From: a virus
Direction: 5' to 3' (one strand)
Virus record (IMG/VR): IMGVR_UViG_3300008448_000266
Span: 1 to 37,340 of that record
Length of the DNA stretch: 37,340 nucleotides
Of this stretch, positions 11,764 through 29,767 are shown one piece after another. A program made the translations under genes and the position numbers. The number at the start of each line of letters is the position of its first letter. Position 1 is the first letter of the stretch. The notes below the pieces were generated by a model, which was given only the letters and a program-made list of their open reading frames with translations, searched no databases and was not told the DNA's origin.

Positions 11764-12540
11764 ATGAAAATAAGTCATGAAGTTCCTTTATGTTTATTAG
11801 AGGATAGTTTAGGTTTTAATGATTATGATTATGCCCTAGTGCATTTACTAGACAAAGATGAGGACTATGTTGATTTCTTTATGAAAGCAAAACAACAAGG
11901 TCGTTATATTATTTTAGATAATTCACTACATGAATTAGGAGAGGCATATCATGATAAAGGTTTATTACATTGGGTTGATAAATTGCGTCCTAATGAATTT
12001 ATTGTTCCTGATGTATGGGAAAATACAAATGCATCTATTGTTAATGCTAGAAAATGGGCTACAATTGAATTGCCTGAAGAAGTTACTAAAGTAGCAGTTG
12101 TTCAAGCTCAAAACTTTTTAGATGCTGTTGTTTGTTATCAAACATATAAAGATTTAGGTTATAAAAAGATTGCTTTTTCATATGGTGCTGAATATTATTT
12201 AGATCATTCTAATCATCCTAATAAAAACTTAGCTAAATCATTAGGTCGTATTCAAGTAATAAGTAGAATGTATGAAATGGGTTTGATTGATCCTAATGAC
12301 AGGGTACATTTATTAGGCTGCCAGGTACCACAAGAATTTAGTTGGTACAAAGATGCTGGATTTATTGAAACTATTGATACATCAAATCCTATTATGGCAA
12401 CTTTAGATGGTATTAAGTATGGTAGAAATGGTTTAACTGAAAAACCAAAATCTAATATGAATAATAATTTTTATATCACCGATATAGATTATGATTTATT
12501 GGATTATAATATATCAATATTTAGAGAATTATTAAAATAA
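11764..12540 (+). CDS. dpdA: DpdA/TGT-like DNA 7-deazaguanine transglycosylase
   Basis: 258 aa. It resembles the tRNA-guanine transglycosylase TIM barrel: ILDNSLHELGE (50-60) carries a candidate catalytic Asp (D52); FIVPDVWEN (79-87) and KIAFSYG follow; DRVHLLGCQVPQEF (179-192) then TIDTSNP (203-209) match the TGT 'LMGVG...FD..P' region, with D205. The TGT zinc cysteine set is not evident. Phage DpdA enzymes of this superfamily exchange guanine in DNA for a deazapurine. The same operon encodes QueC, QueD and QueE, with FolE nearby, which makes DNA modification the likeliest role. A tRNA role cannot be excluded from sequence alone. Confidence 0.62.
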   Translation: MKISHEVPLCLLEDSLGFNDYDYALVHLLDKDEDYVDFFMKAKQQGRYIILDNSLHELGEAYHDKGLLHWVDKLRPNEFIVPDVWENTNASIVNARKWATIELPEEVTKVAVVQAQNFLDAVVCYQTYKDLGYKKIAFSYGAEYYLDHSNHPNKNLAKSLGRIQVISRMYEMGLIDPNDRVHLLGCQVPQEFSWYKDAGFIETIDTSNPIMATLDGIKYGRNGLTEKPKSNMNNNFYITDIDYDLLDYNISIFRELLK

Positions 12541-13067: not shown

Positions 13068-13403
13068 ATGGAACCAAATACATTTTTACACAATGGATCA
13101 TCTTATGCTTTAGGTACATCAAACGCAACTATCCTTTCTAACCCTAGCAGTTATGCTTTAAACACACCAATTTCACAATCATTTAATTTAATACCACAAA
13201 ACACAGTTATGCAAAACAAAGTAGCAGTTTTCAAAGTAACAAGAGACGAAAACAACAAAATCACAGACACTAAGTTTATTAAAGAACTTTGGGTAGAAAC
13301 AAAAAATCAATCAGTAGAATTTCAAGTAGCTAGAGATAAAGATTTAGCTGACTATGATGCTAACGATTTATTTATTAAAACAATTTACACAGTAACATTT
13401 TAA
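13068..13403 (+). CDS. Hypothetical protein
   Basis: 111 aa. The first 45 residues are low-complexity Ser/Asn/Thr (SSYALGTSNATILSNPSSYAL contains two SSYAL repeats), followed by a beta-like half (KVAVFKVTRDENNKITDTKF ... FIKTIYTVTF). Its stop shares the A of the queC ATG. Function unknown. Confidence 0.7.
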   Translation: MEPNTFLHNGSSYALGTSNATILSNPSSYALNTPISQSFNLIPQNTVMQNKVAVFKVTRDENNKITDTKFIKELWVETKNQSVEFQVARDKDLADYDANDLFIKTIYTVTF

Positions 13404-14311
13404 TGAATAAACAAGCAGTATTGTCATTAAGTGGAGGTATGGATAGCTCCACGTTGTTGCTTCATCTACTTGCCAATGGCTATGAAGTGACAGCACTGTC
13501 TTTTGATTATGGACAAAAACATCGAGTTGAACTTGAGCGTGCTCAAGATTTAGTAAACTATTTAAATTTACACTTATTAACTAAAAACCATCCTCCATTA
13601 CCTAAAGGTGTTAGTATTGAGCAAGTACTTGGTAAACAACCTATTAATTACCAAGTAATTAAACTTGATGGATTGAGCCAACTACTCAATTCAGCACTTG
13701 TAACAGGTGGGGCTGAAGTTCCTGAAGGCCACTATGCTGAAGAAAATATGAAAGCAACTGTCGTACCTAATAGAAACAAAATATTTAGTAGTATAATTCA
13801 GGCAGTAGCCTTATCAATAGCAGATGCTAAAAACACGGACGTTCATATTGCGATGGGTATTCATGCTGGTGATCACGCTATTTATCCTGATTGTCGTCAG
13901 GAGTTTAGGGATATTGATTATCAGGCCTTTGTTGCTGGGAATTGGAATGCTGAAAGAGTTAGTTACTATACTCCTTATATAAACGGAGATAAATACTCTA
14001 TTTTAGAAGATGGTCTAAAATGTTGCGAAACATTAGGGGTTGATTTTGATGAAATATATAAACGTACAAATACATCTTATAAACCAATGCAACATTCAGT
14101 TTATTGGGAAAATGAACATGGTGAAACACTTCATTCAGTTGAATGGTTTAGTGATTACAAATCAGCATCTTCTGTTGAACGAGTAGAGGCATTTATTAAA
14201 TTAGGAAGAAAAGATCCTGTATCTTATGCCGATGAATTTGGCCCAGTAACTTGGGAGTACGTAAAAGAGTACGTATCGTCCGTTTTAGATGATTACCAAA
14301 AAACAGTATAG
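13403..14311 (+). CDS. queC: QueC-like 7-deazaguanine ligase lacking its zinc cysteines
   Basis: 302 aa, against about 220-230 for usual QueC. QueC turns 7-carboxy-7-deazaguanine into preQ0 with ATP and ammonia, through an amide. The P-loop SGGMDSS (10-16), SFDYGQKHRVEL, VPNRNKIF (121-128) and YPDCRQEF (161-168) are classic QueC. The zinc site is not: TCY is replaced by TSY (S225), and the CGxCxxC motif aligns with DYKSASS, so the ligand positions become D251, S254 and S257. Extra length lies in an insert around 60-115 and in a C-terminal tail from 265. The enzyme may stop at a different product or bind no metal (inference). Confidence 0.8.
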   Translation: MNKQAVLSLSGGMDSSTLLLHLLANGYEVTALSFDYGQKHRVELERAQDLVNYLNLHLLTKNHPPLPKGVSIEQVLGKQPINYQVIKLDGLSQLLNSALVTGGAEVPEGHYAEENMKATVVPNRNKIFSSIIQAVALSIADAKNTDVHIAMGIHAGDHAIYPDCRQEFRDIDYQAFVAGNWNAERVSYYTPYINGDKYSILEDGLKCCETLGVDFDEIYKRTNTSYKPMQHSVYWENEHGETLHSVEWFSDYKSASSVERVEAFIKLGRKDPVSYADEFGPVTWEYVKEYVSSVLDDYQKTV

Positions 14312-15465: not shown

Positions 15466-15927
15466 ATGAATAAATATATTTCAACAAAAGTATTTGATGG
15501 ATTCAGTTGTGTGTTCCGTCAATGGAAAGCAGAGGGTACACACTGTAAATTCCTTCATGGTTATGGAGTAAGCTTCAAAGTATGGTTTGAGGGTGAACTT
15601 GATGAAAGAAATTGGGTTTGGGACTTTGGAGGTATGAAACGTGCCAAAGGAACTATCGATGGTATGAATCCTAAAGAATGGATGGACTATATGTTTGATC
15701 ATACTCTAATTATTGCCGAAGATGATCCATATTTGGCTGGATGGAAAGCTATGGGTGAACATGGATTGGCTCAAGTAAGAGTTATTCCTGCTGTCGGTGC
15801 TGAACAATTTGCTAGATTTATATATGAAAAACTTAATACATTTATTAATGAAGAAACTAATGGACGTGTTAAAGTTATTCAAGTAGAATTTATGGAACAC
15901 GGAAAAAACAGTGCAATTTATAAATAA
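15466..15927 (+). CDS. queD: QueD-like 6-carboxytetrahydropterin synthase
   Basis: 153 aa. It converts dihydroneopterin triphosphate to 6-carboxytetrahydropterin, the second step of deazaguanine synthesis. It has FDGFSCVFRQW (10-20), then THCKFLHGYGVSF with the catalytic Cys four residues before the first His (CxxxH), DFGGMK, and FDHTLIIAEDDP with the catalytic Asp-His pair. In E. coli QueD the zinc is held by the His of FSAAH and both His of HGH. Here these align with Phe, His and Tyr, so two of three ligands differ. I recall the same FRQW/HGY form in other phages, so it is probably a stable subfamily, not decay. Confidence 0.8.
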   Translation: MNKYISTKVFDGFSCVFRQWKAEGTHCKFLHGYGVSFKVWFEGELDERNWVWDFGGMKRAKGTIDGMNPKEWMDYMFDHTLIIAEDDPYLAGWKAMGEHGLAQVRVIPAVGAEQFARFIYEKLNTFINEETNGRVKVIQVEFMEHGKNSAIYK

Positions 15928-15932
15928 TAAAA

Positions 15933-16748
15933 ATGGATAATACTAAAGTAACAGAAAAACAATGGAACATCCAGGAACCTGGTCGTATCACAGATTATAA
16001 TAAAAAATTACCTGTACTAGAGGTTTATACATGTGTTCAATCAGAGGGATCACGTCAAGGTAGACCCACAGTGGCAATCAGAACAACTGGTTGTACCCAC
16101 AGATGTTGGTTTGGTGCCGGTGGTTGGTGTGATTCTTGGTACACGAGTATTCACCCTGAAAAAGGTATTTATACCTTTAATGACATTATTAAAATCTATG
16201 ATGAAAACCCTCATATTAGAGAAATGATGTTGACTGGTGGTTCACCTACTATGCAACCTGACCTTTGTAATGAATTAACTCACTTTGCTTATGAGAGAGG
16301 TATTTTCATTACTATTGAAACTGAAGGATCACATTTTATTAAAACAGATCACCAAATTGGTTTAATTTCTTTATCACCTAAGTTTAGTAATTCTGTTCCT
16401 AAGCTTGATGTTAATACACCAATGGGTAAGTTAGTTGACCAAAAAATGATTGATCAACACAATAAATTCCGTTTAAATTATGAAGCAATGCAAATGATGA
16501 TGGAATATCACGGTGATTATCATTTTAAACCTGTATGGGATGGTACTGATGAAAACTTTAATGAAATTGAAGAATTTAGATTAAAGATGGATATTCCAAA
16601 ATGGAAAACCTGGTTGATGCCTGCTGGTGATACTAGAGAAACATTAATTGAAATGTATCCTATCTCAATTGAAAAATGTATGCAAGTAGGTTATAATTGG
16701 ACTGGTAGAGACCACATTATTGCTTACGATACTAAAAGAGCAGTTTAA
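15933..16748 (+). CDS. queE: QueE-like 7-carboxy-7-deazaguanine synthase (radical SAM)
   Basis: 271 aa. A radical SAM enzyme that rearranges carboxytetrahydropterin to carboxydeazaguanine. VYTCVQSEGSRQGRPTVAIR (31-50) is the usual QueE opening. The cluster motif is C54-x3-C58-x7-C66, unlike the canonical CX3CX2C. MLTGGSPTMQP (99-109) is the SAM-binding GGEP motif with Ser for Glu. It is longer than most QueE (about 210-250 aa). It follows queD by 5 nt and shares a TAATG overlap with the thioesterase gene. Confidence 0.85.
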   Translation: MDNTKVTEKQWNIQEPGRITDYNKKLPVLEVYTCVQSEGSRQGRPTVAIRTTGCTHRCWFGAGGWCDSWYTSIHPEKGIYTFNDIIKIYDENPHIREMMLTGGSPTMQPDLCNELTHFAYERGIFITIETEGSHFIKTDHQIGLISLSPKFSNSVPKLDVNTPMGKLVDQKMIDQHNKFRLNYEAMQMMMEYHGDYHFKPVWDGTDENFNEIEEFRLKMDIPKWKTWLMPAGDTRETLIEMYPISIEKCMQVGYNWTGRDHIIAYDTKRAV

Positions 16749-20149: not shown

Positions 20150-20848
20150 ATGACTAACGATAATAAAAAAACATTTACCCTCGATTTAGAGGTAGTTAAA
20201 ATGGGTTATGCCAATGGAATTGCTCCTGGTTTCCCACTTACTGAAAAAGAAAAATGGTCTATGGTAGACGAAGCAGCAGAGGCATATGGTAAATTCTTAG
20301 ATGCTTTAGGTTGTGATTGGAGAAATGACCCCAATTCCTCCGATACTCCTAGACGAGTAGCAAAAGCATATGTATTTGATCTATGGAAAGGTAGATACGA
20401 TTCAATGAGTGATATTACCTCATTCCCATCAGATGGTTATGATGGTATTGTAATTGAACGTAATATTCCTCTAACTAGTATGTGTTCACACCACCACCAA
20501 ACAATTGGAGGTGTAGTTCATATTGGTTATGTAGTAGGTGAAAATGGTTCTGTAATTGGTTTAAGTAAATTAAATCGTATTGTAGAACATTTTGGACGTA
20601 GGGGTGCTATTCAAGAACAATTAACATCCGCTATTCACCAAGCAGTAGATAAAATTTGTGAAAACAACAAAGGTGTTATTGTCACTGTAGTTGCAACTCA
20701 CAATTGTGTTTCCTGTAGAGGTGTAAAACACCAAGGTGCTTCAATGGTTACCACCAAAGCCTCTGGAGTATTTTTAAACAATGAAAACCAAGCACGTAAA
20801 GAATTTTTTGATTCATTAAAAATAAACAACGGAGGACATCAGATATGA
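20150..20848 (+). CDS. folE: GTP cyclohydrolase I
   Basis: 232 aa. It converts GTP to dihydroneopterin triphosphate, the first step toward deazaguanine (and folate). DTPRRVAKAYVFDLWKG (65-81) and IPLTSMCSHHHQTIGGVVHI supply zinc ligands C112 and H115; THNCVSCRGV supplies C186. GLSKLNRIVEHFGRR and the C-terminal MVTTKASGVF are conserved. Unlike the QueC and QueD variants, its metal site is intact. Its last codons contain GGAGG ahead of the next start. Confidence 0.93.
   Translation: MTNDNKKTFTLDLEVVKMGYANGIAPGFPLTEKEKWSMVDEAAEAYGKFLDALGCDWRNDPNSSDTPRRVAKAYVFDLWKGRYDSMSDITSFPSDGYDGIVIERNIPLTSMCSHHHQTIGGVVHIGYVVGENGSVIGLSKLNRIVEHFGRRGAIQEQLTSAIHQAVDKICENNKGVIVTVVATHNCVSCRGVKHQGASMVTTKASGVFLNNENQARKEFFDSLKINNGGHQI
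20831..20835 (+). promoter_or_regulatory. Unusually good Shine-Dalgarno for dcd
   Basis: GGAGG lies 9 nt before the dcd ATG at 20845, inside the end of folE. Most genes here have no such site and start in A-rich context, as is usual in Bacteroidota, so this is an exception. It may also just be the Asn-Gly-Gly codons of FolE. Confidence 0.4.

Positions 20849-27867: not shown

Positions 27868-29767
<1,900 letters not shown>

Follow-up and report, generated by a model that had tools for sequence, protein, structure and literature searches.

A zinc-cysteine-free branch of QueC, probably still a preQ0 synthase, in a predicted phage 7-deazaguanine DNA-modification cassette

The two-step reaction of QueC and the role of DpdA are established. 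Canonical QueC carries a motif signature that includes SGGxDS, YxQxHxxE, VPxRN, YPDC and TxY, and zinc is required for its function, according to PMC13329287; the same source reports that Y35, R99, Y131 and Y189 of the E. coli enzyme are each essential for Q. YPDC is assigned a role in CDG recognition (PMC13329287 and PMC13279940). The QueC fold is also found in Cap9 (type IV CBASS) and QatC (qatABCD), for which conjugation of a deazaguanine to protein is known or proposed and which keep the zinc cysteines (PMC13329287 and PMC13279940).

The window, i.e. the whole stretch of DNA analysed here (37,340 nucleotides, IMG/VR record IMGVR_UViG_3300008448_000266), is a 37-kb virus record and a contig fragment. 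Its QueC shares with the canonical enzymes from Bacillus subtilis (3bl5) and Erwinia carotovora (2pg3) the fold, the ATP loop, YxQxHxxE, VPxRN, YPDC and the TxY tyrosine, and its gene has the same FolE, QueD and QueE neighbours; however, the viral form is without the four zinc cysteines, is 70-80 aa longer and scores below the NCBIfam cut-off. The Flavobacterium phage immuto encodes a QueC that is 64% identical, has the TNTSY...SDYKSASSVERVEAF loop in common with it, and belongs to the same FolE, QueD, QueE and DpdA set, to which immuto, unlike the window, adds QueF and a formyltransferase-domain protein. The QueCs of Cysteiniphilum and Facilibium (Fastidiosibacteraceae) are 60-62% identical, with the same Cys-less loop and with phage-type QueE and QueD adjoining, but they are cellular and, along with QueF, TGT and QueA, serve tRNA queuosine. 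This Cys-less branch is absent from the accessible part of a 2026 survey of the QueC family, whose canonical signature lists the zinc motif. We state the novelty of the subfamily with reservation, as Cui et al. 2023 may discuss the protein.

The former zinc site and its conservation

Table 1. Features of the cysteine-free QueC and of the associated genes in the window.
Feature	Position	Strand	Basis or remark
DpdA-like (TGT-fold) transglycosylase, phrog_19058	11764..12540	+	36% to the DpdA-annotated protein of immuto
Cys-less (C-minus) QueC, 302 aa	13403..14311	+	ATG start; PF06508 1.2e-36; AlphaFold2 pLDDT 92
PP-loop SGGMDS, ATP site, residues 10-15	13430..13447	+	residues 10-12, 14 and 15 invariant, 66/66 aligned QueCs
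Variable loop insert, residues ~57-80	13571..13642	+	short or missing in relatives such as L054, L072 and L085
YPDC, CDG recognition motif, residues 161-164	13883..13894	+	Y161, P162 and D163 invariant
TSY, residues 224-226	14072..14080	+	Ser225 in place of first zinc Cys; alignment
Beta-hairpin insert ahead of former zinc loop, residues 229-250	14087..14152	+	AlphaFold2 strands 229-236 and 242-250
DYKSASS in place of CGxCxxC, residues 251-257	14153..14173	+	alignment
C-terminal helix, residues 284-301	14252..14305	+	AlphaFold2 model
QueD	15466..15927	+	PF01242 4.8e-15; phrog_2389 6.5e-41
QueE (CDG synthase)	15933..16748	+	phrog_2076 3e-47; TIGR03365 3.2e-15
FolE (GTP cyclohydrolase I)	20150..20848	+	phrog_2197 5.6e-58

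The window QueC scored 126.7 bits against the Pfam QueC family PF06508 (gathering score 22) and 121.4 bits against the NCBIfam equivalog TIGR00364, whose cut-off is 150.3. The initial annotation had described a protein about 75 aa longer than usual, with an intact P-loop and YPDC, in which TCY had become TSY and CGxCxxC had become DYKSASS; each of these points was borne out. We aligned 66 QueCs, 61 of them Cys-less, and found the C(x)8CxxCxxC zinc motif absent from the viral protein, all four cysteines being replaced: S225, D251, S254 and S257 occupy the cysteine columns of the four-Cys QueCs, and the motif aligns gap-free. Among the 61 Cys-less rows, position 225 is Ser in 60, and the three columns within DYKSASS change from Cys to D/H/S/N, to S/T and to S/D, respectively.

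The rest of the active site is retained. SGGMDS, YGQKHRVE, VPNRN and YPDC are all found in the viral protein, and across the 66 QueCs there is little or no variation in the P-loop, YGQKHxxE, VPNRN, YPDC or the TxY tyrosine. The Cys-less proteins keep the residues that correspond to Y35, R99, Y131 and Y189 of E. coli QueC; Tyr226, which is invariant in the alignment, corresponds to Tyr189. The alignment placed no other conserved cysteines in the site, and a replacement Cys/His ligand set was rejected, none being conserved over the 61 Cys-less rows. The sole cysteine invariant over these rows is C164 of YPDC, which is common to four-Cys QueCs, while C207 is present in 39 and C208 in 52 of the 61.

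At 302 aa, the viral protein is ~70-80 aa longer than the QueCs of known structure, which have 219 and 232 aa, and the extra ~75 aa fall into three segments, a loop, a beta-hairpin and a C-terminal helix. The hairpin varies in length within the Cys-less clade. Since the loop and the hairpin are shorter or missing in close Cys-less relatives, these additions are not tied to the loss of the cysteines. The first Foldseek matches of the AlphaFold2 model were the QueCs 2pg3 and 3bl5, and with VIA, QatC, Cap9 and QueC matched the model equally (Z 17.4-18.2, ties). Eight neighbouring genes in the window, as scanned with Pfam, belong to families other than the CBASS (CD-NTase) or Qat (qatA, qatB, qatD) partners.

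IMG/VR encodes at least 600 relatives of the viral QueC. We read the signature in the best 80 of these together with the window and immuto, and SDYKSASSVERVEAF or a close variant was present in 82/82 loci, much more often than chance would allow. Pairing the viral gene with five neighbours gave dN of 0.12-0.16 and dS of 0.77-0.91 (dN/dS about 0.13-0.18), and two other pairs gave dN/dS of 0.20 and 0.29. Cys-less QueC occurs in 35/35 long viral records, and a second, normal four-Cys QueC was found in none of these 35. Strict conservation, purifying selection and the confident model of a QueC fold support the view, also taken initially, that the Cys-less viral gene is not decaying. In comparison, four cysteines are kept in 11 QueCs of other phages, among them CAjan and HVTV-1 (CAjan, whose QueCs have all four, is a dPreQ0 phage). 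Of the low-scoring planctomycete relatives, the 18 whose frame could be read are also all Cys+ by a simple pattern, and two yielded no frame. Hence, the loss is a property of the branch and not divergence noise.

The phage cassette

The 258-aa product of the DpdA-like gene gave a model with a pLDDT of 96, whose top matches were the TGT 2ash and the bacterial DpdA 7ui4. The protein matches no curated TGT family in Pfam or NCBIfam; phrog_19058 is a PHROG of unknown function, for which predicted structure suggests a compact TGT/DpdA fold, and its Campylobacter phage homologues are labelled hypothetical. The DpdA-like gene is present in 33/35 viral records, sometimes only a few bases from queC. 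A search of 15 cellular genomes with the phage DpdA family returned no matches, and the controls were equally silent. FolE of the window keeps its Cys/His ligands, as judged by eye.

QueF with an intact SNCRVTNQPDWG site is encoded by two phages of the clade, immuto and L049 (2/35 viral records); none was seen in the window, which is a contig fragment. Both QueF phages also have a formyltransferase gene near DpdA and QueF (L163:7040-9016, and L178 in the L049 phage), identified by a Pfam match in immuto and by resemblance only in L049. A formyltransferase beside DpdA and QueF suggests a formylated preQ1 base.

A phage-like contig binned as Spirochaetia (L156:1-2922) carries QueF and a DpdA-like gene together with a QueC that has four cysteines and is closely related to the Cys-less clade. 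Hence, Cys-bearing and Cys-free QueCs fill the same cassette slot.

Two further features of these contigs were recorded. One contig, G066 (L055 / L177, 111,940 bases), has two queC genes ~46 kb apart, both Cys-less, and only the second copy is near a DpdA-like gene. The window encodes a GroEL-type chaperonin at 28151-29767 (PF00118, 9.3e-78), with GroES and GroEL at the matching place in immuto.

Cellular relatives and the probable product

In a scan of species genomes, Cys-less QueCs came from Cysteiniphilum, Facilibium and one bacterium of the Thiotrichales, from planctomycetes including Pirellulaceae/Mariniblastus, from one Neomarinimicrobiota, from TMED161 and from Poseidoniales archaea. 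We tested 42 genomes and found one full-length QueC per genome; the search for a second, normal QueC in them returned only short PF06508 P-loop matches. QueA, TGT, QueF (above cut-off) and QueD are all encoded in 23/23 bacterial genomes of the Cys-less set (6 Fastidiosibacteraceae/Thiotrichales, 16 planctomycetes and 1 Neomarinimicrobiota); among the 16 planctomycetes, L148 has retained the first cysteine. The Poseidoniales encode QueD and a long PF01702 frame of 698-822 aa, the size of arcTGT, in 13/13 genomes, and their Cys-less queC has FolE, QueE and often QueD as neighbours. QueA, and QueF above cut-off, were not found in these 13, and archaea are expected to be without both. The exception is TMED161 (G039, 1.2 Mb), which has a Cys-less QueC without TGT or QueA. 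Some further MAG contigs with a Cys-less QueC and a DpdA-like gene look viral.

The queuosine and archaeosine pathways consume preQ0; hence, a sole, Cys-less QueC should make preQ0, unless every one of these organisms relies on salvage despite a complete de novo pathway. A second QueC may have been missed in the MAGs, or these organisms may salvage preQ0. The initial annotation had proposed an altered function with a product other than preQ0, and this part found no support, since the bacteria (23/23) and archaea (13/13) with preQ0-consuming pathways have no full-length QueC besides the Cys-less one.

The C-minus QueC is thus very probably a zinc-independent preQ0 synthase that works with FolE, QueD and QueE and feeds the DpdA-like transglycosylase for 7-deazaguanine DNA modification. 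CDG would be made by FolE, QueD and QueE and adenylated by the C-minus QueC using ATP; attack by ammonia on adenylated CDG would give the amide ADG, and dehydration of ADG, using another ATP, would yield preQ0. Where canonical QueC has the zinc knuckle, beside the essential TxY tyrosine, this enzyme would have a Ser/Asp loop free of metal, SDYKSASS, that runs into the next helix. The DpdA-like transglycosylase would swap guanine in phage DNA for the base, protecting it from restriction, and in a few relatives the base would be further reduced by QueF. We infer the metal-free state, preQ0 as the free product and the identity of the base in DNA, be it dPreQ0, dADG or another.

Because cells without the zinc motif keep preQ0-consuming pathways, the motif would mark the zinc-bearing branch of QueC and not activity. 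Since Cap9 and QatC, with their known or proposed other chemistry, keep the zinc cysteines, cysteine loss is also no predictor of a new product, contrary to the initial reasoning. Ribosomal proteins L31, L36 and S14 have C-minus paralogues in which the four cysteines of the zinc ribbon were lost in concert with function kept. Such ribosomal paralogues often exist as an additional, zinc-controlled copy, whereas the C-minus QueC stands alone in its genomes. If zinc-independent preQ0 synthesis is correct, zinc in QueC is scaffolding and not chemistry, the same job is done without the zinc site in phages, gammaproteobacteria, planctomycetes, Neomarinimicrobiota and marine archaea, and preQ0 synthesis becomes assignable to hundreds of genes that fall under the curated QueC cut-off; lost metal ligands would then be no basis for reading a new product.

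The phage enzyme might, unlike its cellular kin, have changed its product (to ADG, 7-deazaguanine or another derivative), with the DpdA-like protein writing that base genome-wide. QueF occurs in only 2/35 viral records, so preQ0 use is presumptive for most phages; however, a product other than preQ0 is opposed by the FolE, QueE and QueD neighbours, by QueF in the two clade phages and by the four-Cys QueC in the L156 DpdA/QueF cassette, and we regard such a change as unlikely.

We consider it improbable that the second, dehydrating step was lost without the zinc site, so that the enzyme stops at the amide and ADG is inserted to give dADG in DNA. The nearest relatives of the DpdA-like protein are in immuto and in Campylobacter phages, CP220 for example, and Campylobacter phages are reported to be highly modified with dADG (PMC6884629, citing Crippen et al. 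2019). However, QueC of Campylobacter phage CPt10 has four cysteines; hence, dADG there does not come from cysteine loss. In addition, the nitrile is needed by those members of the clade that are cellular, and QueF, which acts on the nitrile, is encoded by immuto and L049.

A phage CDG decarboxylase, named DpdL, was reportedly predicted by Cui et al. in 2023. The name was not found in this sense in the other literature searched. That the viral protein is such a decarboxylase, giving 7-deazaguanine in DNA, is very improbable: its ATP site, which a decarboxylase would not need, is invariant, and the clade supplies the sole QueC of organisms that have queuosine or archaeosine machinery.

Equally hard to credit is that zinc is still bound through Asp/Ser or His in place of Cys. 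Asp251 is present in 49/61 Cys-less rows and Ser is common at 225, 254 and 257, but no column of the site holds one ligand type (D/H/S/N, S/T and S/D alternate), and serine is a poor zinc ligand. Finally, a decaying or inactive gene, with preQ0 supplied by host QueC, is extremely improbable: QueC is stated to need zinc (PMC13329287) and hosts may own a QueC, but the signature is conserved in all 82 loci read, the low dN/dS goes with intact catalytic residues, and cells that have retained the pathway depend on this clade for their only QueC.

Origin of the loss

In the tree built from all columns, a single branch separated the Cys-less proteins from the rest (SH-aLRT 94). When the motif columns were dropped and long branches excluded, three Cys+ proteins fell inside the Cys-less set, so two changes were needed; a single origin was not rejected (AU p=0.169). 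Hence, the loss may have occurred twice. The viral and Fastidiosibacteraceae QueCs, which have a common SDY[KQ]SASS loop, formed one clade (support 100/97) that was strong in both trees. Since this clade is firm in either tree, the nearest cellular evidence stands for a single or a double loss.

In Cysteiniphilum, the Cys-less queC adjoins QueD and QueE, and this QueE is 60% identical to that of the window. The queC-queD-queE cluster of Fastidiosibacteraceae (L085, L086, L089-L092, L094 and L096) is the one most like that of the phage, and it holds the only QueC and QueD of the family. The tRNA queuosine genes of Fastidiosibacteraceae and the phage DNA-modification cassette appear, by their sequences, to have a common origin by gene transfer, in one direction or the other.

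In many Poseidoniales archaea, the Cys-less QueC frame runs on into a methionine sulfoxide reductase B domain, SelR, which in L100:5926-7146 matches PF01641 at 4.8e-50. Similar QueC-SelR frames, judged by eye, are present in other Poseidoniales loci (L099, L101-L104, L111, L124, L130, L136, L138, L143 and L145).
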